From the NCBI RefSeq assembly GCF_019974135.1, contig NZ_AP025017.1, forward strand, positions 1,860,001 through 1,924,000: a stretch of DNA of 64,000 bases, read 5' to 3'. The DNA comes from Actinomyces capricornis (lineage in GTDB: Bacteria; Actinomycetota; Actinomycetes; Actinomycetales; Actinomycetaceae). The position numbers were made by a program, and so were the translations under genes. This document shows positions 3,821 to 42,550 of the stretch, piece by piece. The stretch's first letter is position 1, and each line of letters opens with the position of its first letter. The notes under the pieces are model-generated. The model was not told the origin of the DNA, ran no database searches, and saw only the letters and a program-made list of their open reading frames with translations.

Positions 3821-4168
3821 TCAGCCCTCCCGGCTCTGGGCAGCCCGGGGCGCCGGCTCTCGCGCATCGACCGATGCCCGCCGGTGCCGCCATGCCCGGC
3901 GCAGCGCGGGCATGGCGATGACGTCAAGGATCAGGACGCTGAGTAGTGAGGCATGTGCGGCGAACCAGAATGCTGTGGCATGGGGCAGGAACTGCTGAGG
4001 GGCGAAGCCGTGCTCCTCGGCGCGGTTGACTGCCGCAGTATCGGCGATATGCCACAGTGCATAGAAGCTGATCACGGCTGCATTGACCGCGACGAGCGCG
4101 ACCGTGAACGCCGTACGGGAGGCGATGGTCAGGGCCCCATGTGGTACAGTGCTGCTTATCGTTCGCAT
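3821..4168 (-). CDS. Small two-span membrane protein, unknown function
   Basis: The predicted protein has 115 residues with two hydrophobic stretches: one near the N-terminus (TAFTVALVAVNAAVISFYALWHI) and one in the second half (FAAHASLLSVLILDVIAM). A charged Arg-rich tail follows. I do not recognise a family. Its ATG at 4168-4166 shares one base with the TAA stop of the upstream secreted-protein gene (TAATG), so the two are almost certainly translated from one message. A TTG nine bases upstream is a weaker start. The pair lies in an AT-richer stretch next to an IS30 remnant, which suggests acquisition by transfer. A secreted protein followed by a tiny membrane partner recalls effector/immunity or secretion-helper pairs, but nothing in the sequence proves that. 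Confidence 0.6.
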   Translation of the reverse strand: MRTISSTVPHGALTIASRTAFTVALVAVNAAVISFYALWHIADTAAVNRAEEHGFAPQQFLPHATAFWFAAHASLLSVLILDVIAMPALRRAWRHRRASVDAREPAPRAAQSREG

Positions 4169-5142
4169 TAGTTGCAACCGCTCCAGAGGAACCCTAAGTA
4201 GCCCTTATCTGGTAGTTTCGTGTCGAGATTCCAGCTTTCTTTTCTGGGTGAACGGAGGCGAACGAAATCCCAGTGGCAAAGAAACTGGTTGTACATCGTC
4301 CCGGTGTCAGGGTTCGGGTGGCCGTCGCGTTCAGTCTCTTCGAGTGTTTCCCACCATGCGGGGTCGCCATAAATGGGATGCGCGATCCTTCCCCAAAGTG
4401 TTGGGTATACTTTCAGTGTGGGGCTCCACTCCCATAGGTCGTTTGCCCATTCGGTGTGGTCGATGAGATTTCCGGCCCACCACGGGTCCGCAACAACTGG
4501 AAATGCGGTATTATTGTTGAACGAGATATGTTGAGTGATCTTATTTCCGTCCACGCGATAGAATGTGGGAAGGCTGTTCCCGTTGGCGTCTTTAGCCCAG
4601 GGGGCTGCCAACCCTCCTTCCCATTTCCCATTTGCTCCGATCAGTGAGACTCCGCCGTCTTCTTCCGTGCGGAAATGAGATCCGTCGTTGATGGCGAATG
4701 TGTATGTGTAATCCTGGGGGGATGTTGCGGACTTTGCGGTGGTCACCAGTTGAACGGACCCGTCGCTCTTTGGGAGTACGGTGGTGCTGTAATCTTGATT
4801 CTCATAGGCGATGCCGCCTGCTGCTAATGGGGTTGCTGTTTCCGTTGAGTCTCCTGGGATGCTGATTGCAATGTCGGATGCGTCGGATTTCTGGTCGTCA
4901 ATAATGACATTGCCCGACGTTTGGTGCGGAATTGTTATTGTGCTGTTGGCTGTGGTGGAGGAATATCCTGAGGTATTGGGGGTCGGGGTCACGTTCTCTT
5001 GAGTGACAATTTCTCCGGCAATGAGGAGGGCGGAGGCTGTCTCGTCTGTTGAACTCTGATCCGCTGATGCTGGCGAGACTATTAGGGTGGAGAGGGGGAT
5101 GCTGAGTAGAGTAAAGAGTAGGGGCGTCTTTCTGGGGGTCAT
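4168..5142 (-). CDS. Secreted protein with DUF2599-like C-terminus
   Basis: The 324-residue protein has a Sec signal peptide (hydrophobic residues 7-23, likely cut after ASA27). A Ser/Thr/Asn-rich middle follows, then a Trp-rich C-terminal region. From about residue 228 it reads like the actinobacterial DUF2599 family: YPTLWGRI, then MYNQFLCHWDF, WNLDTKLPDKGYL and a final Cys. The two cysteines (in FLCHW and at the C-terminus) could form a disulfide. DUF2599 has no assigned function that I know. The start has AGGAG nine bases upstream of ATG. Codon use is clearly more AT-rich than in the flanking ppk and pst genes. It is coupled to the small membrane protein downstream. The family call is from memory of the motif pattern, not a search. 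Confidence 0.75.
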   Translation of the reverse strand: MTPRKTPLLFTLLSIPLSTLIVSPASADQSSTDETASALLIAGEIVTQENVTPTPNTSGYSSTTANSTITIPHQTSGNVIIDDQKSDASDIAISIPGDSTETATPLAAGGIAYENQDYSTTVLPKSDGSVQLVTTAKSATSPQDYTYTFAINDGSHFRTEEDGGVSLIGANGKWEGGLAAPWAKDANGNSLPTFYRVDGNKITQHISFNNNTAFPVVADPWWAGNLIDHTEWANDLWEWSPTLKVYPTLWGRIAHPIYGDPAWWETLEETERDGHPNPDTGTMYNQFLCHWDFVRLRSPRKESWNLDTKLPDKGYLGFLWSGCN

Positions 5143-5441
5143 GGCCGGAAACTCCTGTCGTTGGGGGTGCTGATGCCGGTTCCCTGGATTCTATGCCCGT
5201 GGGCGGGTCGGTGTCGGCGTCTGCTGCTGCAGACTTATTGGCGATTCAATGAGTCCACCTCCATTGACTATATGAGGGCGTCGTATTTTCCGTTTTATAA
5301 TAACACTATTCGTGGATTGCGCAAGGTATTTATGGCCTAGTGGTGAAAATTCTCTGGAGACTGTCGCCTTGCGTGCACTGGATGTCAAGAGAGTGTTGAG
5401 ATGTCATTTAGATTCTCACTTGCTGAGGCTCGGACTTGGTG
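5143..5441. other. AT-rich intergenic stretch beside IS30 remnant
   Basis: About 300 bp upstream of the secreted-protein gene, visibly AT-richer than the rest of the window, with runs such as TTTTATAATAACACTATT near 5291-5308 that could hold promoters. I see no convincing coding frame; the short open frames have no ribosome site and unlikely composition. It probably belongs to the same acquired segment as the neighbouring genes. Confidence 0.4.
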
Positions 5442-5681
5442 TCAAGGGGTGGGAGCAACGAGGAAGCGTTCGATGGCTTGGCGTGGGGTGAGGTGGTCCA
5501 GGGTGGTGCGGGGGCGCCCACCCGTGTTCTTGGGCGATGGCGGTGGGGTAGGGCTGGTGCTGGGGGATGGGGTGCCTTTGGGTCGGTGCTCGCGGATCAG
5601 GCCACCTGTGCTCTCGTTGGAGCCTCGTTGCCATGGCCTGTGGGGATCGGTGAAGTAGACCGGCATATCGGTGGCCCCGGT
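5442..5681 (-). pseudogene. IS30-family transposase, C-terminal remnant
   Basis: Only the last ~75 codons of an IS30-type transposase remain. The diagnostic stretch reads VYFTDPHRPWQRGSNESTGG, then LIREHRPKGT and GGRPRTTLDHLTPRQAIERFL, matching the DDE catalytic-domain end of IS30 enzymes, including the final Glu in SNES. The N-terminal helix-turn-helix and the first catalytic Asp are absent; upstream sequence in this frame does not resemble the family. The link between KGT and GGRPR is Pro/Ser-rich and looks degraded. No terminal inverted repeats were found, so this is a dead fragment that marks the edge of the inserted AT-rich segment. Confidence 0.85.
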
Positions 5682-5838
5682 ACATAGCGGCGTGGCCGGT
5701 GCATCTGGCTGCCCTGGTCCGGCGTCGGGGTGTTTTTCATCAAGCCGGGCACAGCGTGGACATGGGGCGTGACAGCGGACAGCGCATCTGTTCACTGGGT
5801 GTTCACCTCCGGCACTTTCCGCGGTCATCCGGGCTCCT

Positions 5839-5850
5839 TAGTCTCCTGGC
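5839..5850 (+). promoter_or_regulatory. Leaderless -10 box for pstS
   Basis: TAGTCT at 5839-5844 is followed by exactly six bases and then the GTG start of pstS, with no Shine-Dalgarno site. This is the TANNNT-N6-start layout of leaderless actinobacterial transcripts. Confidence 0.6.
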
Positions 5851-6954
5851 GTGCCACGATCCGACTCACCGCGCGCCCCCGGTCTCACCCGCCGCAGCGC
5901 CCTGGGCGCGTTCAGCGCCATGGCCGCCACCACCGCCCTGGGCGCCTGTGGGCGCGACGCCGGACCCCCCGCCCCCGGCGCCTCCACCGACCTGGAGGGC
6001 GAGATCAAGGGCGCCGGCGCCACCTCCCAGTCCGATGCCCAGGATGCGTGGGTCAACGGCTTCATGGACCGCAACCTCAACGCCGCCGTCGACTATGCGG
6101 GAGGGGGCTCCGGGGCGGGCCGTACCAAGCTGGTGGCCGGGGCCGTGGACTTCGCCGGCTCCGACGCCCCCCTGGATGAGGAGGAGTCCCAGGCGCTGGG
6201 CGGCGCCGTCGAGCTCCCCCTCTACATCTCCCCGATCGCCGTGGCCTACCACCTGCCCGGCCTGGCGGGCCAGGGGCGCCTGAACATGACCGGGGAAGTC
6301 ATCGCCAGGATCTTCGCCGGGGACATCACCTCCTGGCGCGACCCGGCCATCGCCGCCCTCAACGAGGGCACCGAGCTTCCCGATACCCGCATCACGGTGG
6401 TGCACCGCTCGGACGACTCGGGCACCACCAAGAACGTCACCGGATACCTCCACGCCGTCGCCCCCCAGGCCTGGCCCCACAAGGGCGCCGAGACCTGGCC
6501 GCTGGGCGGCGGGCAGTCCGGGGACGGCACCTCGGGCATGATCCAGACCCTCACCGCCGCCCCCGGCACCATCGGCTACGCCGACGCCTCCAAGGTCCCC
6601 GAGACCCTGGGCACCGTGGCGGTGGGCGGCCCCGGCGGCTTCGTGGCCTACTCCGCCCAGGCCGCGGCCGCCACCCTGGACGCCTCCCAGCTCTCGGAGC
6701 ACGCCACCGAATCCCGGCTGGTCTACTCCCTCAACTACTCCGCCGAGGGCACCTACCCCATCATCCTGGTGTCCTACCTCATCGCCCGCCAGCGCTACGA
6801 GGACCCCGAGATCGCCCCCGTCCTCAAGGCCTACCTGCGCTACGCCGCCTCCGCCGAGGGCCAGCAGGCAGCCTCCCGGGCCGCCGGCTGCGCGCCCATC
6901 TCCGAGGAGCTGCGCACCAGGGTCAACGCCGCCATCGAGACCATCGTGGGCTGA
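5851..6954 (+). CDS. pstS: Phosphate ABC transporter substrate-binding lipoprotein
   Basis: PstS captures inorganic phosphate outside the membrane and hands it to PstCA. The N-terminus has a twin-arginine motif (TRRSALG, R14-R15), a hydrophobic stretch and a lipobox LGAC with Cys33, so it looks like a Tat-exported lipoprotein. The mature part shows PstS signatures: GAGATSQ near residue 52, DYAGGGSGAGR, FAGSDAPL, and HRSDDSGTTKN in the phosphate-binding region. The length (367 residues) is normal. GTG at 5851 is supported by a TAGTCT box six bases upstream. It heads pstS-pstC-pstA-pstB, and PstS genes are usually induced by phosphate starvation, though no Pho box was identified here. Confidence 0.95.
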   Translation: MPRSDSPRAPGLTRRSALGAFSAMAATTALGACGRDAGPPAPGASTDLEGEIKGAGATSQSDAQDAWVNGFMDRNLNAAVDYAGGGSGAGRTKLVAGAVDFAGSDAPLDEEESQALGGAVELPLYISPIAVAYHLPGLAGQGRLNMTGEVIARIFAGDITSWRDPAIAALNEGTELPDTRITVVHRSDDSGTTKNVTGYLHAVAPQAWPHKGAETWPLGGGQSGDGTSGMIQTLTAAPGTIGYADASKVPETLGTVAVGGPGGFVAYSAQAAAATLDASQLSEHATESRLVYSLNYSAEGTYPIILVSYLIARQRYEDPEIAPVLKAYLRYAASAEGQQAASRAAGCAPISEELRTRVNAAIETIVG

Positions 6955-31764: not shown

Positions 31765-34356
31765 ATGTTTGAACGCTTTACTGATCGCGCCCGCCGCGTC
31801 GTCGTGCTCGCCCAGGACGAGGCCCGGGCGCTCAACCACAACTACATCGGCACCGAGCACCTCCTTCTCGGCCTCATCCACGAGGGCGAGGGGGTGGCGG
31901 CCAAGGCGCTGGAGTCCATGGACATCTCCCTGGACGCCGTGCGCGCCCAGGTCGTGGAGATCATCGGGGAGGGCCAGTCGGCCCCCACCGGCCACATCCC
32001 CTTCACCCCCCGGGGCAAGAAGGTCTTCGAGCTGTCCATGCGCGAGGCCCTCCAGCTCGGCCACAACTACATCGGCACCGAGCACCTGCTCCTGGGCCTG
32101 CTGCGCGAGGGCGAGGGCGTGGCCGCCCAGGTGCTGACCAACCTCGGCGGGGACCTGTCCAGCGTGCGCCAGACCGTCATGCAGATGCTCTCGGGCTACG
32201 AGGGCAAGGAGGCGGTGGCCGCAGGACCGGGCGGCTCGAAGGAGGGCACGCCCTCGGGCAGCGCCATCCTCGACCAGTTCGGCCGCAACCTGACCGCCGC
32301 CGCCCGCGAGGGCAAGCTCGACCCGGTCATCGGGCGCCACAAGGAGATGGAGCGGGTCATGCAGATCCTCTCGCGGCGCACCAAGAACAACCCCGTCCTC
32401 ATCGGGGAGCCCGGCGTGGGCAAGACCGCCGTCGTGGAGGGCCTGAGCCAGGCCATCGTCCACGGCGACGTCCCCGAGACCCTGCGCGACAAGCAGCTCT
32501 ACTCCCTGGACATGGGTTCCCTGGTGGCCGGCTCGCGCTACCGCGGCGACTTCGAGGAGCGCCTGAAGAAGGTCCTCAAGGAGGTGCGCACCCGCGGCGA
32601 CATCGTCCTGTTCATCGACGAGATCCACACGCTCGTGGGCGCCGGCGCCGCCGAGGGTGCGGTGGACGCGGCCTCCATCCTCAAGCCCATGCTCGCCCGC
32701 GGCGAGCTCCAGACCATCGGGGCCACCACCCTGGACGAGTACCGCAAGATCGAGAAGGACGCCGCCCTGGAGCGCCGCTTCCAGCCGGTGACCGTCGAGC
32801 AGCCCAGCATCGAGGAGACCGTCGGCATCCTCACCGGCCTGCGCGACCGCTACGAGGCCTTCCACCGCGTGGTCATCACCGACGACGCCATCGAGGCGGC
32901 CGCCAAGCTCGCCGACCGCTACATCAACGACCGCTTCCTGCCCGACAAGGCCATCGACCTGGTCGACGAGGCCGGTGCCCGCCTGCGCATCCGCCGCATG
33001 ACCGCCCCCCAGGAGCTGCGCGACATCGACGAGAGGATCGCCGAGGTCAAGCGGGAGAAGGAGTCGGCCATCGACGACCAGGACTTCGAGCGCGCCGCCT
33101 CCCTGCGCGACGACGAGCGCCGCCTGGGCGAGGAGAGGGCCGCCAAGGAGAAGGCCTGGAAGTCCGGCGACCTGGACCAGGTGGCCGAGGTCGATGAGAA
33201 CCTCATCGCCGAGGTCCTGGCCATGTCCACCGGCATCCCGGTGGTCAAGCTCACCGAAGCCGAATCCGCCAAGCTGCTCAACATGGAGAGCGAGCTCCAC
33301 AAGCGCATCATCGGCCAGAACAAGGCCATCGAGGCGCTGTCGAAGTCCATCCGCCGCACCCGCGCGGGCCTGAAGGACCCCAAGCGCCCCGGAGGCTCCT
33401 TCATCTTCGCCGGGCCCACCGGTGTGGGCAAGACCGAGCTGGCCAAGGCCCTGGCGGAGTTCCTCTTCGATGACGAGGACGCCCTCATCCAGCTCGACAT
33501 GTCCGAGTTCGCCGAGAAGCACACGGTCTCGCGCCTGTTCGGGGCGCCCCCCGGCTACGTCGGCTACGACGAGGGCGGGCAGCTGACCGAGAAGGTGCGG
33601 CGCCGTCCCTTCTCCGTGGTGCTCTTCGACGAGGTGGAGAAGGCCCACCCCGACATCTTCAACTCCCTGCTGCAGATCCTGGAGGACGGGCACCTGTCCG
33701 ACGCCCAGGGCCGCGTGGTGGACTTCAAGAACACCGTCATCATCATGACCACCAACCTGGGCTCCAAGGACATCGGCAAGTCGGTGGCCACCGGCTTCCA
33801 GTCCACCGACTCCGGGGCCATGGACTACGAGGAGATGAAGGCCCACGTCAACCGCGAGCTCAAGCAGCAGTTCCGGCCCGAGTTCCTCAACCGCGTCGAC
33901 GACCTCATCGTCTTCCCACAGCTGACCAAGGCCGAGGTGCGCCAGATCGTGGACCTCATGATCGCCCGCCTGGCCGTGCGCCTGGCCGAGCAGGAGATGG
34001 CCATCGAGCTGACCGACGCCGCCAAGGAGCTGCTGGCCGAGCGCGGCTTCGACCCGGTCCTGGGCGCCCGCCCGCTGCGCCGCGCCATCCAGCGCGACAT
34101 CGAGGACGCCCTGAGCGAGAAGATCCTCTTCGGTGAGATCGAGCGCGGCCAGAAGGTGATCGTCGACGCCGAGGGCGACTCGATCCTGGGCGAGTTCATC
34201 TTCCGCGGTGAGCCCTGGACGCCGGGCGAGGCCGAGGAGGCCGCGGTGCGCGAGGCCGAGAAGATCGTCTCGGGCTCCTCGGTGAGCAGCGCCCCGATGG
34301 CCGCCCCGCGGACCTCTCCGGGCAGCGAGGGCGCCGCACCCGCACCCGGCGCCTGA
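31765..34356 (+). CDS. clpC: ATP-dependent Clp protease ATPase ClpC
   Basis: ClpC unfolds substrates and feeds them to ClpP. The 863-residue protein has two N-terminal Clp repeats (both with [13 protein letters not shown]), AAA module 1 with Walker A GEPGVGKT near residue 214, a UVR/M-domain segment near 435 ([18 protein letters not shown]), and AAA module 2 with GPTGVGKT near 550 and a ClpP-loop region. The disordered C-terminal tail after residue ~835 is Ser/Ala/Pro-rich. ATG at 31765 follows AGGAGG by eight bases. It is monocistronic, with a ClgR-like operator upstream and two strong hairpins downstream. Confidence 0.98.
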
Positions 34357-34385
34357 GCGGGCGCCGTCGGCTCCAGCCTCGGTTT

Positions 34386-34419
34386 CCGCCCGTCGTCGGC
34401 ACTGCTCGACGACGGGCGG
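34386..34419 (+). terminator. Terminator hairpin after clpC
   Basis: A perfect 13-bp stem (34386-34398 with 34407-34419) and 8-base loop, 30 bp after the clpC stop. No T-run, as is common in GC-rich Actinobacteria. Confidence 0.7.
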
Positions 34420-34437
34420 GAGCGCTTGACGGCGTCG

Positions 34438-34491
34438 CACGGGCCCGTGGGGGCAGGCGGGGTTGAACCGCCTGGCTCCCACGGGCTCGTG
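34438..34491 (+). terminator. Second hairpin after clpC
   Basis: Bases 34438-34451 pair with 34478-34491 (13 of 14), and the interior has a further AGGCGG/CCGCCT stem. It backs up the first terminator. Confidence 0.6.
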
Positions 34492-34569
34492 TGTTCATCG
34501 CGGCCAGTTCCCACTGTCCGCAGCGGCTACCGGGAGGCCTCGGAGATGGGGCGAAACCCACAGAAGCCC

Positions 34570-34593
34570 CTATATGTGATTTGCTACATATAG
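34570..34593. promoter_or_regulatory. Palindrome CTATATGT-N8-ACATATAG
   Basis: Perfect 8-bp arms (34570-34577 and 34586-34593) separated by 8 bases, in an otherwise GC-rich genome. It could be an operator for the polysaccharide operon. Confidence 0.5.
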
Positions 34594-34667
34594 TGAAAGA
34601 ATGCTTAAAAAAGAGGGGGAACACTCTGATGAGATACCCCTTCTCGGCCGAGAGCGCGGCGCTGACC

Positions 34668-34716
34668 GTTACAGTGTTGTGACACCCGTGGTCGTCAGTG
34701 ACAGCCGCCTGTGACA
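34668..34716 (+). promoter_or_regulatory. GTNACA direct repeats upstream of pelG
   Basis: GTTACA at 34668 and GTGACA at 34679, 34698 and 34711. The first two have an 11-bp period, as expected for an OmpR-type regulator such as MtrA; the assignment to MtrA is a guess. Confidence 0.4.
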
Positions 34717-34783
34717 ACCGACCCGGTCCCCCCAGGGCGCCTCTGTGCGCCAGGATCCGCGCCTTGTTACTGAGAAAGCCGCT

Positions 34784-36232
34784 ATGAGTCAGGCCAGATA
34801 CGAACCCCGCCACCTCTCACGGTTGCGGCGCCCCACCCTGCGCACCGCCAACGGGTCCGTGGCCCTGGGAGGCAGTTGCCTCATGGTCGGGGGGCTGGCC
34901 TGGGCCCAGTGGCCGCCGCCGGCGACCGTGGCGGTGCTGACCGTCATCATCGTCATCAGCCTCGGCCTGGTCACCGCGCCCCCCTCCAGCGCCCTGCGGC
35001 GAGGAGTGATGCCGCGCGGCTCCCGCCGGGCCTGGGCCGGCACCATGATCCTGGCCATGTCCCCGGCGATCCTGCTGGGCATCGTCTTCCCCATCGTCGC
35101 CCCTCGGATCGCCGGCAACTCCATCGGGGGTGTGGGACTGCAGTCCATCATCCTGAGCGTGTCCGTGGTGGTGCCCTGGATCAGCCAGGTGGTGGGCAAC
35201 CCCGTCTACCGCCTGCTCGGCGACGCCATCGGGCGCGGCCCGGCCGTGGTGCTGAGCCGTTACTGCTCCGCCTGGCCCGCCCTCTTCCTGTGGGCGCTCA
35301 TCCCCTCCCTGCTCGTGGCACTGACGGTGGCCGCTGTTACCGGCTGGAGCGCCCGGGCCATGGCAGCCCACCTGGCCCTGCTGATCGCCCACGTCGTCTT
35401 CGTCCAGTCCCTCATCATCTCCGACATCTCCGGACGTCGGCGCCTGTGGGCCGTGGGATGGCTCGTCTACGCCCTGGCGCTCCTGGCCGTGCCCGCCTGG
35501 TGGTTCCTGCCCCCGCTGCTGGGCACGGTCAGCCAGCTGCTGGCCATGGGCAGGACCCTCGGCGGCCTGCTGCGCCCCATCACGATCCCCGCCGGGCCCC
35601 TGGTCCAGGACATGGCCCGCGGCTTCATCCTGGGCGGGGTGCTGTGGTCGGACAAGTTCCTCCTCTTCCTGTCCGCCGGAACCGACTTCCATGTCGCCCT
35701 GGTCTACCTCAGCCTGCAGCCCGCGGTCGTCGCCTACTGCTACTACTTCTCGGTGACCTCCCCGCGGGTCAACACCGAGGTGGCCCTCTTCCAGGCGCTC
35801 CTGAAGGAGCGGCACATGGAGGAGCTGCGCTCCCGGGGCCAGCAGCTGCGCCACCTGCTCAACGCGAGCCTGGTGCGGGCCTGCGCCGTGGGCATCGGGG
35901 GGGTGCTCATCACCGTCGTCGTCATCGCGCTGGCCTCTCCCGGGGATCTGCACGAGGTGCTCATCGTGGGGATCTCCTCCCTGCTCTTCACCATCCTGAC
36001 CCTCCTGGCCTACGAGATCGACCATATCGGCGACCACGTGTCCTCCCTGCTGCTGTCGGCCGTCCACCTGGCCGCGGCCGCCTTCCTGCTGCTGGGCCAG
36101 GGCAGCACCCGGGCCTACCTGCCGCTGGCCTGTGTCGATCTCGTCCTGTGCCTGGCGGCCCTGGTGCTCTACCGCAGGCGCTGGGCCGCACCTGAGTACT
36201 CCTTCTTCTGGGGAAAGGCGATGTCCTGGTGA
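34784..36232 (+). CDS. PelG-like exopolysaccharide membrane protein
   Basis: The 482-residue protein has about twelve membrane spans, the size and topology of PelG, the polysaccharide transport component of Pel systems. The recognisable PelG-like stretch is GFILGGVLWSDKFLLFL, then LSLQPAVVAYCYYF and RVNTEVALFQALLKE, where PelG has its conserved W-D-K and F-x-x-x-E pattern. ATG at 34784 is preferred; an upstream GTG/ATG extension is possible. It overlaps the PelF-like glycosyltransferase gene by GTGA, and PelF-PelG pairing supports the call. No pelD or pelE is present in this window. Identity is a motif-level judgement. Confidence 0.75.
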   Translation: MSQARYEPRHLSRLRRPTLRTANGSVALGGSCLMVGGLAWAQWPPPATVAVLTVIIVISLGLVTAPPSSALRRGVMPRGSRRAWAGTMILAMSPAILLGIVFPIVAPRIAGNSIGGVGLQSIILSVSVVVPWISQVVGNPVYRLLGDAIGRGPAVVLSRYCSAWPALFLWALIPSLLVALTVAAVTGWSARAMAAHLALLIAHVVFVQSLIISDISGRRRLWAVGWLVYALALLAVPAWWFLPPLLGTVSQLLAMGRTLGGLLRPITIPAGPLVQDMARGFILGGVLWSDKFLLFLSAGTDFHVALVYLSLQPAVVAYCYYFSVTSPRVNTEVALFQALLKERHMEELRSRGQQLRHLLNASLVRACAVGIGGVLITVVVIALASPGDLHEVLIVGISSLLFTILTLLAYEIDHIGDHVSSLLLSAVHLAAAAFLLLGQGSTRAYLPLACVDLVLCLAALVLYRRRWAAPEYSFFWGKAMSW

Positions 36233-38526
36233 GCTCATCCATTCGCAAGCGGCTGGAGTCGCTGCCCTCCTACTACTCGGCGCCCGCCGGGGGATATGCG
36301 CCCATGCCTCCCTCGATGAGCAACCGGGGCTCGGCGGCCTCACCGCAGGCGGCCCGACGCCGCTCGGCCTCCAGTGCCGAGCCGGCTCAGGCCGAGCAGG
36401 CCGCGGAGCGCCGTCCTTCCGTGCCGCCCCCCGCGCCGGCACGGCCCGGGCAGGAGGGCGCCGGGCCCACGCGCCCCGCGCCGGGGCAGTCAGCGCCGGA
36501 TCAGCCCGGAGCGGGCCGGCCGGCGAGCGCGGGGGAGTCGCCAGTGCCACCGGGCCTCCAGCCCACCCCGCAGGGCTACGGCTTCGTGGCCACCGGGCCC
36601 AGCCCGGCCTCTCCTCCCGCCGCCGACCCGGTCACCCGCCAGGCCTCCGCGCCGCCGGTGCCGTCGATGCCGGTGGTGCCCACCCCGGTGGCGCCCACCC
36701 CGATGGTCCCGCCCGCCGGCGCTGGCCCTCAGGAGACCGGGCCGGCGCCCCAGCCGTCGGTGCCGTACCCGCCCGCGCCCCACCCGTATGAGGCCGACGC
36801 ACCCGAGCCCGCAGGGCCCCTGCTCGACGACGTCGTTGAGCCCGAGGGGGTCCTGCTGACCGAGGACCTCCCCGCCGTCTCGCCCAGCGAGGAGCTCCCC
36901 CTACCCGTCCAGGAGGCGGCCACAGGCCCCGGCTCACCCTCCTGGCCCGACGGCGTGCCCGCCGACGGCGTCTACCAGGACGTGGACGTGGCCATCGTCA
37001 TGGAGTCCACCTACCCCTACCTCAAGGGCGGGGTCTCGGCGGTCGTCCACGACATCATCACCGGCAACCCGGAGCTGACCTTCGGCATCATCCACCTGAC
37101 CTGGGACTCCCAGGCGCCCAACAAGGACCTGTACGGCATGCCCGACAACGTCGCCTGGGTGCGGGTGCTCTACCTGGCCATGGAGGAGCATGAGGAGGCC
37201 TTCCTGCGGGCCCGCCCCCGCGACCTGCGCATGGGTCGGCGCAAGCGCCGCGAGCTGTCCCGCCGGCTCGTCGGCTCGCTGCTGGCCCTGGCCCAGGAGG
37301 GCCGCACCGAGCCCCTGTGGGACCTCATCACCGAGGGCCTGGCCGGGGGCACGCGCCGCTACCCGGTGTGGGCGATCCTGGGAACCCAGGAGTTCATGGA
37401 GGCCTACCGGGAGATGATGCCGGACCTGGGCATGTCCATGTCCGACATCTTCTGGTGCCTGCGCGACTTCTTCTCCCTGGCCTACGCCGTGCTCTCCGAG
37501 CCCATGCCCCGCGCCGCGGTCTACCACGCGCACACCACCGGCTACGCCGCCCTGCTGTCGGTGGCCGCCTCCCGCCTGCACGGCACCGGCTTCCTGCTCA
37601 CCGAGCACAACCTCTACGTGCGCGATACCGTCAACACCCTGCTGGACCGGCGCCTGGACCGCAACATCACCCTCAACGACTACCGCACCTTCGACGTCAC
37701 CGGCCGCCAGCGCATGTGGATGGCCTGGTGGCTGGAGATGGGGCGGCTGTGCTACCCCTACGCCTACGCCAGCACCTACCTCTACCCCCGGGCCATCACC
37801 GAGGCCACCGAGCTGGGCGGGGACGCGAGCAAGGCGATCATCATCCCCAACGGCATCGTCACCACCGAGTTCGATGCCTCCTACGCGGCCCGCATGAGGG
37901 CGCTGGAGGCGATCAGGAGGGAGGGCGCGGGCAGGCATCTGTGGAAACTGGTCTACATCGCCCGCGTCGTGCCCATAAAGGGTCTCATGGACATGATCGA
38001 CTCCATGAAGCTCATGGTGGACCGCGGCCTGAACGTGCACCTGGATGTGTGCGGCCCCACCGAGCACCGCCCCGACTACTTCGAGAAGTGCCTCAACCAC
38101 ATCATCGAGCAGGGCCTGGAGTCGGTCATCACCATCCGCGGCACCGTCAAGATCCGGGCCCTGCTGCCCGAGTTCGACCTGTTCGTCCTGCCCAGCTACA
38201 ACGAGGGGCTGCCCGTGGTCTCCCTGGAGACGATGGGGGCGGGCATCCCCACGGTGAGCACCGACGTCGGCGCCGTGCGCTCGGTGGTGGAGGACGAGAT
38301 CGTCGCCGAGGACGGCACCGTGTGGGGGCCCTGCGGCACCATCATCGAGCCGGGCGACCCCGTGGTCATGGCCGATGGGGTCCAGCGCATCATCGAGGAC
38401 CTCGACCTCTACGAGCAGCTGTGCCGGGCGGCACGCGGGCGTGTGGAGGCCGCCTACAACCTGGAGAAGGTCAACGCCGCCTACAACAAGGTCTACCGGC
38501 AGGGCGGTGCCGGGAAGGGAGCGTGA
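36229..38526 (+). CDS. PelF-like GT4 glycosyltransferase with disordered N-terminus
   Basis: From residue ~248 on, this reads as PelF: VDVAIVMESTYPYLKGGVSAVVHDII, FGIIHLTWD, then a GT4 Rossmann domain with YIARVVPIKGLMDMI, DVCGPTEHRPDYF and the EX7E motif NEGLPVVSLETMGAGIP. PelF polymerises UDP-sugars into the Pel chain. The first ~245 residues are Pro/Ala/Glu-rich and repetitive (PTPVAPTP), absent from known PelF; they may tether the enzyme to its membrane partner. The 765-residue length is due to this extension. GTG at 36229 overlaps the pelG-like stop, and its own stop overlaps the next gene's GTG. Confidence 0.82.
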   Translation: MSSSIRKRLESLPSYYSAPAGGYAPMPPSMSNRGSAASPQAARRRSASSAEPAQAEQAAERRPSVPPPAPARPGQEGAGPTRPAPGQSAPDQPGAGRPASAGESPVPPGLQPTPQGYGFVATGPSPASPPAADPVTRQASAPPVPSMPVVPTPVAPTPMVPPAGAGPQETGPAPQPSVPYPPAPHPYEADAPEPAGPLLDDVVEPEGVLLTEDLPAVSPSEELPLPVQEAATGPGSPSWPDGVPADGVYQDVDVAIVMESTYPYLKGGVSAVVHDIITGNPELTFGIIHLTWDSQAPNKDLYGMPDNVAWVRVLYLAMEEHEEAFLRARPRDLRMGRRKRRELSRRLVGSLLALAQEGRTEPLWDLITEGLAGGTRRYPVWAILGTQEFMEAYREMMPDLGMSMSDIFWCLRDFFSLAYAVLSEPMPRAAVYHAHTTGYAALLSVAASRLHGTGFLLTEHNLYVRDTVNTLLDRRLDRNITLNDYRTFDVTGRQRMWMAWWLEMGRLCYPYAYASTYLYPRAITEATELGGDASKAIIIPNGIVTTEFDASYAARMRALEAIRREGAGRHLWKLVYIARVVPIKGLMDMIDSMKLMVDRGLNVHLDVCGPTEHRPDYFEKCLNHIIEQGLESVITIRGTVKIRALLPEFDLFVLPSYNEGLPVVSLETMGAGIPTVSTDVGAVRSVVEDEIVAEDGTVWGPCGTIIEPGDPVVMADGVQRIIEDLDLYEQLCRAARGRVEAAYNLEKVNAAYNKVYRQGGAGKGA

Positions 38527-39608
38527 GCGTGAGCGGAGTCGGAGCCTGGATCCGGTACGGCAACCCCCTGGAGCCCCAGGAGGTCGACTTCGCGATACGC
38601 CACTACCGCGCGGCCATCCTCCAGCCCTGGGAGACTGAGGCGGCGGCGCGCCTGAAGGACCAGCGCCCCGATATGACGGTCCTGGCCTACCGCTGCCTGT
38701 CCTCCGCCCGCGACTTCGAGCCCCCCGAGCGCTGCGCCTCGGGCCTGACCTTCCAGGAGGTCTCCCAGCGCGGCTGGCTGGCCCGGCGCGCCGATGGCAG
38801 CGCCGTGGAGTGGTCCACCTACCCCGGCCACTTCCAGGCCCGGGTCTGGGACGAGCGCTACCGGGCCCGCTGGGTGGAGCAGGTCTGCGAGGACACCGCG
38901 GAGACGGCCTTCGACGGCATCATGTCCGACAACGACGTCTTCGATGACTACTACGGCCTGAGCCTGCCCCTGGAGGAGGTGGAGGACACCGCCTCCCTGC
39001 GCCGGGTCCTGGACGGCTTCGTGGAGCAGGTGGGCTGGGGCCTGGCCGGGGTGGGCAAGATCCTGGTGCCCAACATCGCCGAGGCCCGCCGGGAGCCGGG
39101 CCGCTGGGAGCGCCACGCCGCCTGGGGCGGCGGCCTCGATGAGTGCTGGCTGGGGTGGGGCGGCAGCCGGCTCTTCGATGAGCCCACCGCCCTGGCGCAG
39201 ATCCACGAGCTGCGCGGGCCGGGCATCTCCATGGTGCGCACCCCCGACGGCGGTGGCGGCCGGGCCCCGCACGCCCTCTACGGCCTGGCCGCGTTCTGGG
39301 TCTTCGGTGGCGGCCGGGGCGCCTACGCCTCCACGGGCCACGACGACTACTCCCGCACCCCCTGGTTCCCGGCGCTGGACGCCGACCTGGGCCGGCCCGT
39401 GGGCGAGCCGCGGCGCGCGGGCGGGGCCTGGGTGCGCGACTTCGAGGGCGGCCTGGCCGCGGTCGTCCTGGATCCCCACCATCGGGCCCAGCTCGAACTG
39501 CCCCGGGGGCTGGTCCTGCCCGGGCGCAGGGGACTGGCCGATGGGAGGCCCCTGCCCCGCAGCGTCGTGCTGCCCGGGCAGCACGGGCTCCTGGCCCTGC
39601 GCCCCTGA
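38523..39608 (+). CDS. Putative TIM-barrel glycoside hydrolase of the Pel-like operon
   Basis: The 361-residue protein has no signal peptide. Its pattern is that of GHL-type putative glycoside hydrolases: strand-1 GAWIRYGN, VLAYRCLSSARDFE, RWVEQVCEDTAETAFDGIMSDNDVF with Asp136 and Asp138 after a beta strand, VPNIAEAR, GGLDECWLGW with a candidate acid Glu, and a C-terminal beta domain. Pel systems include a hydrolase (PelA), so this may be an analogous chain-cutting enzyme, although PelA is exported and this protein appears cytosolic unless the start is further up. GTG at 38523 overlaps the PelF-like stop; GTG at 38529 is an alternative. Family assignment is tentative. Confidence 0.6.
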   Translation: MSVSGVGAWIRYGNPLEPQEVDFAIRHYRAAILQPWETEAAARLKDQRPDMTVLAYRCLSSARDFEPPERCASGLTFQEVSQRGWLARRADGSAVEWSTYPGHFQARVWDERYRARWVEQVCEDTAETAFDGIMSDNDVFDDYYGLSLPLEEVEDTASLRRVLDGFVEQVGWGLAGVGKILVPNIAEARREPGRWERHAAWGGGLDECWLGWGGSRLFDEPTALAQIHELRGPGISMVRTPDGGGGRAPHALYGLAAFWVFGGGRGAYASTGHDDYSRTPWFPALDADLGRPVGEPRRAGGAWVRDFEGGLAAVVLDPHHRAQLELPRGLVLPGRRGLADGRPLPRSVVLPGQHGLLALRP

Positions 39609-39612
39609 GCCG

Positions 39613-39695
39613 TGGCACATTTTCGGCGCCCCTCGCGCCGCCCGGGGCCGGTTCTTCCGCAGAATCCCGTCGGCCCGCGGGCTGAAGATGTGCAG
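39613..39695. repeat. Palindromic element, degenerate copy C
   Basis: The right end GAAGATGTGCAG (39684-39695) is identical to copies A and B; the left end (39613-39624) differs at three of twelve positions. Total 83 bp, with an interior TTCCGCAGAATCCC. It follows the hydrolase gene as copies A and B follow ygfZ. Confidence 0.75.
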
Positions 39696-39731
39696 CTCCG
39701 GGGCAGGGGCGGCTCGCAGGGCGCCGCGTTT

Positions 39732-39760
39732 TTGATCTAGGACTGAGGTCACACTAGAGT
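39732..39760 (+). promoter_or_regulatory. Promoter of ppdK
   Basis: TTGATC at 39732-39737, a 17-base spacer and TAGAGT at 39755-39760 form a good housekeeping sigma promoter. The start point would be near 39767, giving a leader of about 70 nt. Confidence 0.6.
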
Positions 39761-39835
39761 GGGGCCGTTGACGCGCGCAGGCGCGCAGTCCACTGACACC
39801 AGTCCCATCAGGACCACATACCGAAAGAGGCGATG

Positions 39836-42550
39836 ATGCCCACCACGTACGTGTACCGCTTCAGCGAGGGCGACAAGGACCAGAAGGACCTTCTGGGCGG
39901 CAAGGGGGCGAACCTCGCCGAGATGACCCGTCTCGGCCTGCCCGTCCCCCCAGGCTTCACCATCACCACCGACGCCTGCCGCGCCTACCTGGCCACCGGT
40001 GAGGTCCCTGAGGAGCTCGCCGTCCAGGTCACCACCGCCCTGCGCGAGGTCGAGGCGGAGCTGGGCCGCCATCTCGGCGCCGCCGAGGACCCCCTCCTGG
40101 TCTCGGTGCGCTCGGGCGCCAAGTTCTCCATGCCGGGCATGATGGAGACGGTGCTCAACATCGGCCTCAACGACGAGTCCGTCAAGGGACTGGCCGCCGC
40201 CAGCCAGGACGAGCGCTTCGCCTGGGACTCCTACCGCCGCCTCATCCAGATGTTCGGCAAGACCGTCCTGGACATCGACGGCGAGCATTTCGCCTCCGCC
40301 CTGGAGGCCAAGAAGGCCGACCGGGGCGTGAGCCTGGACTACGAGCTGGATGTCGCGGCCCTCACCGAGCTGGTCGAGGAGTACAAGGCGATCGTGCGCG
40401 AGTACGCGGGCATCGACTTCCCCCAGGACCCGCGCGCCCAGCTCGACATGGCCACCGAGGCGGTCTTCCGCTCCTGGAACACCGAGCGCGCCCACATCTA
40501 CCGCCGCCGTGAGAAGATCCCCCACGACCTGGGCACCGCCGTCAACGTGTGCACCATGGTCTTCGGCAACATGGGGCAGACCTCCGGCACGGGCGTGTGC
40601 TTCACCCGCGACCCCTCCACCGGCCGCTCCGGCGTCTACGGCGACTACCTGGTCAACGCCCAGGGCGAGGACGTGGTGGCGGGCATCCGCAACACCCTGT
40701 CCCTGTCCGACCTCAAGACCATCGACCCGGAGTCCTACAAGGAGCTGCGCGCCGCGATGCGCCGCCTGGAGACCCACTACCGGGACCTGTGCGACATCGA
40801 GTTCACCATCGAACGCGGCAAGCTCTGGCTGCTCCAGACCCGCGTGGGCAAGCGCACCGCCGCCGCGGCCTTCCGCGTGGCCACCCAGCTGGTGGACGAG
40901 AAGCTCATCACCAAGGACGAGGCCCTCACCCGCGTCACCGGCGACCAGCTCACCCAGCTGATGTTCCCCCAGTTCGAGCACACCGGGGACAACGACCTCA
41001 TCACCAAGGCCATGCCGGCCTCCCCGGGCGCGGCCGTGGGCCGCATCGTCTTCGACAACGCCGAGGCCGTGGCCCGCGCCGAGGCCGGCGAGTCGGTCAT
41101 CCTCGTGCGCCGCGAGACCAACCCCGACGACCTGCCCGGCATGGTGGCGGCGGTCGGCGTGCTCACCGCGCGCGGCGGCAAGACCTCCCACGCCGCCGTC
41201 GTGGCCCGCGGCATGGGCAAGACCTGCGTGTGCGGCGCCGACCAGCTCGAGGTCGACGCGGCCGCCAAGACCATCCGGGTACGGGGCCGGGAGGACCTGG
41301 TCCTCACCAGTGAGGACACCATCGCCATCGACGGGCAGACCGGCGAGGTCTTCCTCGGCGAGGTCCCCGTGGCCGACTCCCCGGTGATGACCTACCTGCG
41401 CCGCGGCCTGGAGGTGGCCCTCGACGCCGCCGGCGACGTCGACTCCCGCGAGCTCATCACCAGCGTGGACCGCCTCATGCGCCATGCCGACGAGGTCCGC
41501 CGCCTGGAGGTGCGGGCCAACGCGGACAACCCCGACGACGCCCGCCACGCCATCCACCGCGGCGCCCAGGGCGTGGGCCTGTGCCGCACCGAGCACATGT
41601 TCCTGGGCGAGCGCAAGCAGTTCGTCCAGAACCTCATCCTGGCCCAGACCCCCCAGGAGCGCGAGAGCGCCCTGGCGGCCCTGCTGCCCCTGCAGAAGGG
41701 CGACTTCGTCCAGATGTTCGAGACGATGAACGGCAAGCCCATGACGGTGCGCCTCATCGACCCGCCGCTGCACGAGTTCCTGCCGGACTTCACCGAGCTG
41801 AGCGTCAAGGTGGCCCTGGACCGCGAGCGCGGCACCCTGGACCCGGCCGATGAGGAGCTGCTGGCGGTCGTGCGCCGCAACCACGAGGCCAACCCCATGC
41901 TGGGCCTGCGCGGGGTGCGCCTGCTGCTGACCATGCCCGGGCTCATCGAGCTCCAGGTGCGTGCCATCGCCGAGGCCGCCGTGGAGCGCCTCAAGGCCGG
42001 CGGCGACCCGCGCCCCGAGATCATGATCCCGCTCATCGGCTCGGTGCGCGAGCTCCAGATCGCCCGCGAGCGGGTCGAGGCCGTACTGACCGAGGTCTCC
42101 CAGGCCTCGGGCTACGAGCTGGACTTTCCGGTGGGCTGCATGATCGAGCTGCCCCGCGCGGCCGTGGGCGCGGACACCATCGCCGAGGAGGCCGACTTCT
42201 TCTCCTTCGGCACCAACGACCTGACCCAGACCACCTGGGGCTTCTCGCGCGACGACGTCGAGGGCACCTTCTTCAAGGAGTACCTGGAGGAGGGCGTCTT
42301 CGGGGTCTCGCCCTTCGAGACCATCGACGAGCGCGGCGTGGGGCGCATGGTCGAGCTCGGCGCCGAGCGCGGGCGCCAGACCAAGCCCGACCTCAAGCTG
42401 GGGGTCTGCGGCGAGCACGGGGGCGACCCCGAGTCCATCGAGTTCTTCCACCGCGCGGGCCTGAACTACGTGTCCTGCTCGCCCTTCCGGGTGCCGGTGG
42501 CGCGCCTGGAGGCCGGGCGCGCGGCCGTGTTCACCTCCACCCAGGAGTAG
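39836..42550 (+). CDS. ppdK: Pyruvate phosphate dikinase
   Basis: PPDK interconverts pyruvate, ATP and phosphate with PEP, AMP and pyrophosphate. The ATP-grasp domain occupies the first ~340 residues (GGKGANLAEM, SVRSGAKFSMPGMMETVLNIG). The swivelling phosphohistidine domain has His452 in GGKTSHAAVVARGMG, and the PEP/pyruvate domain has GLCRTEHMF and the active-site Cys in GVCGEHGGDP. The 904 residues fit the family. ATG at 39836 is preferred because AGAGG lies five bases upstream; ATG at 39833 is too close. It is monocistronic, with its own promoter and a 17-bp terminator stem. It may link pyrophosphate to carbon metabolism, with pyrophosphatase also encoded in this window. Confidence 0.97.
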   Translation: MPTTYVYRFSEGDKDQKDLLGGKGANLAEMTRLGLPVPPGFTITTDACRAYLATGEVPEELAVQVTTALREVEAELGRHLGAAEDPLLVSVRSGAKFSMPGMMETVLNIGLNDESVKGLAAASQDERFAWDSYRRLIQMFGKTVLDIDGEHFASALEAKKADRGVSLDYELDVAALTELVEEYKAIVREYAGIDFPQDPRAQLDMATEAVFRSWNTERAHIYRRREKIPHDLGTAVNVCTMVFGNMGQTSGTGVCFTRDPSTGRSGVYGDYLVNAQGEDVVAGIRNTLSLSDLKTIDPESYKELRAAMRRLETHYRDLCDIEFTIERGKLWLLQTRVGKRTAAAAFRVATQLVDEKLITKDEALTRVTGDQLTQLMFPQFEHTGDNDLITKAMPASPGAAVGRIVFDNAEAVARAEAGESVILVRRETNPDDLPGMVAAVGVLTARGGKTSHAAVVARGMGKTCVCGADQLEVDAAAKTIRVRGREDLVLTSEDTIAIDGQTGEVFLGEVPVADSPVMTYLRRGLEVALDAAGDVDSRELITSVDRLMRHADEVRRLEVRANADNPDDARHAIHRGAQGVGLCRTEHMFLGERKQFVQNLILAQTPQERESALAALLPLQKGDFVQMFETMNGKPMTVRLIDPPLHEFLPDFTELSVKVALDRERGTLDPADEELLAVVRRNHEANPMLGLRGVRLLLTMPGLIELQVRAIAEAAVERLKAGGDPRPEIMIPLIGSVRELQIARERVEAVLTEVSQASGYELDFPVGCMIELPRAAVGADTIAEEADFFSFGTNDLTQTTWGFSRDDVEGTFFKEYLEEGVFGVSPFETIDERGVGRMVELGAERGRQTKPDLKLGVCGEHGGDPESIEFFHRAGLNYVSCSPFRVPVARLEAGRAAVFTSTQE

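Follow-up and report, generated by a model that had tools for sequence, protein, structure and literature searches.

Actinomyces capricornis carries three overlapping genes, here termed G, F, and H, that encode a polytopic membrane protein, a PelF-family glycosyltransferase, and a glycoside-hydrolase-like protein of family GHL15. This actinobacterial PelF-based gene set, pointed out in a preliminary description of the same DNA, proved to be conserved across species, being found in 22 of 23 Actinomyces loci and in 16 loci elsewhere. With slightly better than even confidence, we read G-F-H as a predicted glycan module consisting of a reduced Pel-like synthase-translocase pair plus a dedicated cytosolic hydrolase. 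Its probable role would be the synthesis and export of a polysaccharide of the cell surface.

Gene order and conservation of the three genes

The window, i.e., the whole stretch of DNA analyzed, comprises 64,000 nucleotides of contig NZ_AP025017.1, and genome searches were run on this single contig of 3.17 Mb. All three genes lie on the plus strand of the window. G (34784-36232) encodes a 482-aa polytopic membrane protein that has 12 predicted spans and resembles PelG in position and topology; F (36229-38526, GTG start) encodes a 765-aa PelF-family GT4 glycosyltransferase; and H (38523-39608, GTG start) encodes a 361-aa GHL15 TIM-barrel glycoside-hydrolase-like protein. The start of F overlaps the stop of G by 4 bp and the start of H overlaps the stop of F by 4 bp, just as the preliminary description had it. 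In the window, the trio is flanked by clpC on the G side and by ppdK on the H side (both named by eye from the sequence), with only G, F, and H between them. The G protein is 92% identical to its counterpart in Actinomyces bowdenii, a species to which the window's genome is close.

A known riboswitch at the locus was ruled out, as positions 34200-40000 gave two chance-level Rfam matches and none above the gathering score. Upstream of G, a perfect inverted repeat, CTATATGT-N8-ACATATAG, was noted at 34570-34593; it was rejected as a conserved operator because it is lost in A. bowdenii. Elsewhere in the window, the GC content of positions 4001-6000 is 0.586, compared with about 0.72 on either side, and a 324-aa secreted-looking ORF lies within this low-GC stretch on the minus strand (4168-5142).

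We analyzed the distribution of the genes among relatives. A survey of 200 genomes from the Actinomyces family recovered G in 23, all of them within Actinomyces, of which 37 members were sampled, and F was detected at E < 1e-200 in 29 of 49 genus genomes. When the 37 genus members tested for both genes were compared, presence of G and F agreed in every case (23 with both, 14 with neither). Of the 23 Actinomyces loci examined (the window and 22 relatives), 22 carry G, F, and H side by side; the exception, L009, lies on a contig that ends after G. In each of the 22 relatives, clpC stands before G, and in 21 of them F and H come after it; the G-F overlap measures 4 bp in 20 of these 22 loci and 7 bp in two.

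Outside the genus, G was detected in two families (14 of 149 genomes in the first, 3 of 12 in the second), and the complete trio was present in 16 of these 17 loci, including L155, where the G frame extends past its usual end. In the 17th locus, L221 of genome G651, only pieces of the three genes remain next to one another, which looks like simultaneous decay of the entire module; these remnants were excluded from the whole-locus counts. In 13 of the 16 loci, H comes after F in the same orientation, whereas in L157-L159 of the second family it has the opposite orientation, at a distance of 15 to 1873 bp. Chance adjacency was thus ruled out, since 38 of 39 loci hold the complete trio together and the 39th is cut by a contig end. 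The association also held from the side of the glycosyltransferase: when 35 PelF-like loci were scanned, mostly about 8 kb to each side, H was found in exactly the eight that carry G, and it was present in all eight further loci with a whole G and F.

The PelF-family glycosyltransferase and its membrane partner

Judged by its sequence, F is a PelF-family GT4 enzyme. It matched the NCBIfam PelF equivalog NF038011 with 234.8 bits (2.2e-69; cutoff 100) and Pfam DUF3492 at 7.9e-40, and Glycos_transf_1 was also matched. The EX7E catalytic motif (E659...E667; 38203..38229, plus strand) is retained, with both glutamates conserved in all 48 PelF-like proteins that were aligned, and the GGVS, TGY, and PIK motifs are common to F and canonical-type PelF. 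These data bear out the earlier assignment as a PelF-like GT4 and provide a significant match to the PelF profile. Across 23 F proteins of the G-F-H type and seven from canonical-type loci, 47 positions are invariant.

The F core scored 106-180 bits against the seven canonical-type F proteins and 42-93 bits against 18 F proteins of another clade. That F is closer to canonical PelF rests on these scores, because the F tree is rooted at its midpoint only, with long branches meeting. In this quick tree of 48 F proteins, which includes 15 of the 23 Actinomyces loci, the G-F-H type (23 rows) and the other actinobacterial clade (18 rows) each received an SH-aLRT of 100, and the seven canonical-type rows did not form one clade. 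The comparison covers 48 of the 50 loci given, L168 and L181 having no F hit at 1e-10.

F begins with an N-terminal extension (36229..36978, plus strand) of 250 aa, 65% of which are P, A, E, G, or S, and which is probably disordered. With the start of F taken as the in-frame start codon closest to the G stop, for the extension and overlap measures alike, 14 of the 22 Actinomyces loci have an extension of 205-415 aa and the remaining eight one of 30-43 aa. It carries a short conserved N-terminal peptide that was found in one Actinomyces group. A second PelF in the genome was ruled out: the four other matches of the F query reached at most 51 bits and involved the C-terminal glycosyltransferase half only, and with the PelF profile a single match reached E ≤ 1e-20, only 3 of 14 candidates having been scored.

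The identity of G was less clear-cut. PelG has been described as a 12-helix MOP protein (PMC13254593), and the 12 hydropathy segments of G, which bear out the earlier claim of a 12-span protein, are by themselves weak evidence for PelG. The second half of that claim, identity with PelG, did not hold up in profile searches. No significant PelG match was obtained in the protein, its relatives, or the genome: G itself matched no Pfam family, PF16933 included, and neither 16 Actinomyces relatives (chance-level E values of 0.22 and 3.4, one member each) nor six members from other families (chance-level E values of 0.14 and 1.7) gave a credible Pfam match. A PF16933-type PelG elsewhere in the genome was ruled out as well, the whole-genome search with this profile being empty; across 396 genomes of the phylum, the same profile recovered PelG above cutoff in 7.

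We compared G with PelG by hhalign, in which the probability was at most 2.1% in every comparison. With 17 Actinomyces G proteins as the query the score was 26.2, and with true PelG as the query it was 26.8 (23 G rows) and 23.0 (31 G rows). Broader G alignments used as the query scored 18.6-18.7, within the decoy range; for the seven membrane proteins used as decoys, scores ran from 13.2 to 19.6 when PelG was the query and from 11.7 to 19.3 when G was. Of the proteins encoded near other PelF-like genes, two exceeded G in their score with PelG (30.5 and 28.6) and one reached 20.2. A reversed-alignment null scored 15.7; circular rotations scored up to 23.2 and are uninformative, since local alignment retains the same region. 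G and PelG align colinearly as far as the C-terminus, keeping an LWxDK stretch and the terminal Y..F motif in register, and the C-terminal EYxxFW motif of G is invariant in the 23 rows of alignment A3, from which L155, whose frame runs on, and the near copies L008, L009, L011, L012, L014, L041, and L042 were left out. From context, topology, and sub-threshold similarity, G is likely PelG-like and likely of the MOP/PelG type.

The AlphaFold model of G was poor (pLDDT 44); the input alignments contained ten sequences for G and nine for H, the window included. When this model was searched with Foldseek, nothing was found at E ≤ 0.001, and MurJ, MATE, and WzxE were among the weak matches. These nonsignificant matches would suit a lipid- or wall-linked glycan, for which F would elongate a lipid carrier, G would act as a Wzx/MurJ-like flippase, and H would trim the carrier-bound glycan before flipping, a cytosolic hydrolase being well suited to trimming a cytosolic intermediate. 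Against it, the three genes between clpC and ppdK have no neighboring carrier-priming transferase, polymerase, or wall ligase, and the characterized enzymes of the PelF equivalog family, to which F belongs, polymerize, to our knowledge, without a known lipid carrier. We consider this pathway quite improbable.

A further possibility is that G is unrelated to PelG and to export, e.g., a membrane enzyme or scaffold, and that F and H make and remodel an intracellular or membrane-bound glycoconjugate. Such a role would fit a protein that no profile identifies and that stands beside an H of cytosolic appearance, but a polytopic partner is the rule for PelF-like genes, an open frame with at least eight predicted spans being present in 32 of 35 such loci, and G and F agree in presence in all 37 genomes compared. 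This explanation strikes us as very improbable.

The GHL15 protein

H matched GHL15 (PF14885) with 130.2 bits (1.8e-37; cutoff 27), and all 21 H proteins of alignment A4 matched this family at E ≤ 1, the near copies L010, L011, L012, L014, L041, L042, L044, L046, and L049 having been left out. As far as its sequence can tell, H is a GHL15 (GH168-like) TIM-barrel hydrolase of predicted activity, in line with the resemblance to TIM-barrel glycoside hydrolases first proposed for it. The AlphaFold model of H had a pLDDT of 41.

When the H profile was compared with solved chains, each match was the sum of weak stretches: 9f9v ("putative secreted protein") was reached at 3.2e-6, 9nhf (GHL15) at 0.0057, 8ya6 (endo-1,3-fucanase) at 0.056, 9jom at 0.08, and two GH114-named chains at 0.26 and 0.31. 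Both 8ya6 and 9jom are GH168 enzymes (PMC11943901), and 9nhf is MeGH168, with Asp167 as the predicted nucleophile and Glu237 as the acid/base (PMC12210190). H D136 (38928..38930, plus strand) aligns with Asp167 and is therefore the predicted catalytic nucleophile, and H E207 (39141..39143, plus strand) is a candidate acid/base by its spacing, lying 23 residues past N184 as Glu237 lies 24 past the matching Asn, with no program aligning E207 to Glu237. All 29 H proteins compared carry both D136 and E207. The GH168 endo-fucanases Fun168A, Fun168E, and MeGH168 are thus solved relatives within reach of the H profile, and the position of the predicted nucleophile of MeGH168 aligns with D136. In contrast to these enzymes, which serve fucoidan breakdown and of which MeGH168 has a signal peptide, H is signal-less and sits with a polymerase.

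We also examined where H might act. Neither a signal peptide nor a hydrophobic segment or membrane span was seen in H, and 19 of the 21 aligned H proteins have their start no more than a few residues from the first conserved block, while those of L160 and L161 are longer. Since H lacks a hydrophobic segment and most members start near this block, H is probably cytosolic, and the apparently cytosolic hydrolase of the preliminary description stands.

Hydrolases also accompany PelF-like genes of other kinds. Four from other PelF-like loci (L162, L168, L172, and L183) were compared with Pfam, and all are GH114. These clusters resemble G-F-H in having a PelF-like GT4, mostly a polytopic protein, and a nearby TIM-barrel hydrolase, but their F belongs to another clade (L168 stands outside the tree) and their hydrolase is GH114, not GHL15. 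Indeed, GH114 (PF03537) was matched by only one of the 21 H proteins, at an E value of 0.14, and similarity between GH114 and H by hhalign was local and not significant. An NDP-sugar epimerase is encoded in L163, another actinobacterial PelF-like locus, and L183 encodes a 735-aa protein with sub-threshold similarity to Agd3-type deacetylases (19.4 bits; cutoff 27.6). Because L162, L163, L168, L172, and L183 carry GH114 proteins, the epimerase, or the Agd3-like protein, their sequences suggest that the other actinobacterial PelF-like loci make galactosamine-type polymers.

Missing pel genes and the proposed function

The preliminary description had stated that pelD and pelE are absent from the locus. 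We searched for them with genes of L152 that were read as PelD, PelE, and PelADA from gene order and Pfam hits. These probes matched L186, a locus of another family, at 1.5e-34, 7.4e-17, and 7.7e-76, respectively, and none of them matched in 39 loci (the window, 22 Actinomyces, and 16 others). The absence therefore agrees with that statement, under a control that was partial: of four canonical-type loci from other genera than that of the probes, one was matched by PelD and PelE and two by PelADA, the PelD and PelE probes being silent in L178, L179, and the short contig L184. A 477-aa protein of L178 that matches the same stretch of L186 as PelD (9.7e-7) likewise gave no match in the 39 loci, whereas nine of these loci gave receiver-domain matches to a large sensor kinase of L178, as expected of a common domain. 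Since no tested locus showed PelD, PelE, or PelADA next to G-F-H, control by c-di-GMP via a neighboring PelD is unlikely. Profile PF16963 was discarded as a PelD detector: nothing exceeded its cutoff in the window's own genome or in any of 44 genomes, seven of them with canonical-type PelF/PelG loci (three of these seven being 77-89% complete), and its seven matches were at chance level (E 0.02-0.7).

These searches also bear on whether G-F-H is an ordinary, rearranged Pel system, in which a strongly diverged pelD, pelE, or deacetylase lies elsewhere in the genome and G is a fast-evolving PelG. The low reach of the detectors speaks for it, as PF16963 is silent even in genomes with canonical-type loci and the L152 PelD and PelE probes miss three of four canonical-type loci outside their own genus; moreover, Gram-positive pelD and pelE were initially missed and then recovered by iterative search or by hand, as described in PMC7112168 and PMC7112194, and a PelF-neighbor protein of L177 likewise reaches PelG below cutoff (20.6 bits). 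Yet the L152 probes and the 477-aa L178 protein are silent in the window and 38 related loci, the PelD, PelE, and PelADA genes of L152 and L186 adjoin pelF and pelG, and the constant companion of G and F is H, which is absent from the 27 other PelF-like loci examined. We regard a rearranged Pel system as unlikely. For the minimal system first proposed, the outcome was divided: PelF matches and no second PelF or PF16933-type PelG was found in the genome, but the PelG profile fails to recognize G.

Known systems place the trio in context. The Gram-positive pelDEADAFG system of Bacillus cereus, to which type L152 belongs, resembles G-F-H in having a PelF-family polymerase beside a 12-span membrane protein and in lacking outer-membrane genes. 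G-F-H differs from it in that no PelD, PelE, or PelADA was found nearby, G is unrecognized by the PelG profile, the gene order is G-F-H, and a signal-less GHL15 protein is part of the operon. The pel system of Streptococcus intermedius, whose PelD lacks GGDEF, is similarly not wired to c-di-GMP through PelD (PMC12345266), but it keeps a PelD, of which none was seen at the G-F-H locus. The systems of P. aeruginosa, B. cereus, and S. intermedius are reported to need every pel gene, PelD and PelE included (PMC12345266, PMC13254593).

For the module of a synthase-translocase pair and a cytosolic hydrolase, which we favor, the following course can be proposed. F, as a retaining GT4, would polymerize a nucleotide-activated sugar in the cytosol into a product that is probably alpha-linked HexNAc, as for PelF. 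G would carry the growing chain, or a lipid-linked form of it, across the membrane, and H may trim, terminate, or clear unexported chains in the cytosol. A bolder reading, possible though doubtful in our estimation, is that G-F-H represents a separate class of synthase-dependent glycan exporter, with a PelF polymerase and a new translocator family, controlled intracellularly by a dedicated cytosolic GHL15 hydrolase and not by c-di-GMP, PelD, or an extracellular deacetylase.

How much of this is new can be stated in part. Actinobacterial pelDEADAFG has already been published (PMC7112168, PMC7112194), and a supplementary figure legend of PMC7112194 mentions Gram-positive loci with only pelF and pelG; the idea of a minimal FG system is therefore not wholly new. 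The preliminary description had called the system possibly undescribed, and as regards the trio itself this stands: no publication found concerned G-F-H, judged by title or the start of the abstract. The portions of the published work found named no Pel-type system for Actinomyces.

Actinomyces are early colonizers of plaque. If G-F-H makes a matrix glycan, the trio would offer a three-gene target for biofilm work and would raise the question of the minimum that a PelF polymerase needs. A conserved cytosolic hydrolase beside the polymerase would, if the proposal is true, represent an unusual form of chain-length control.
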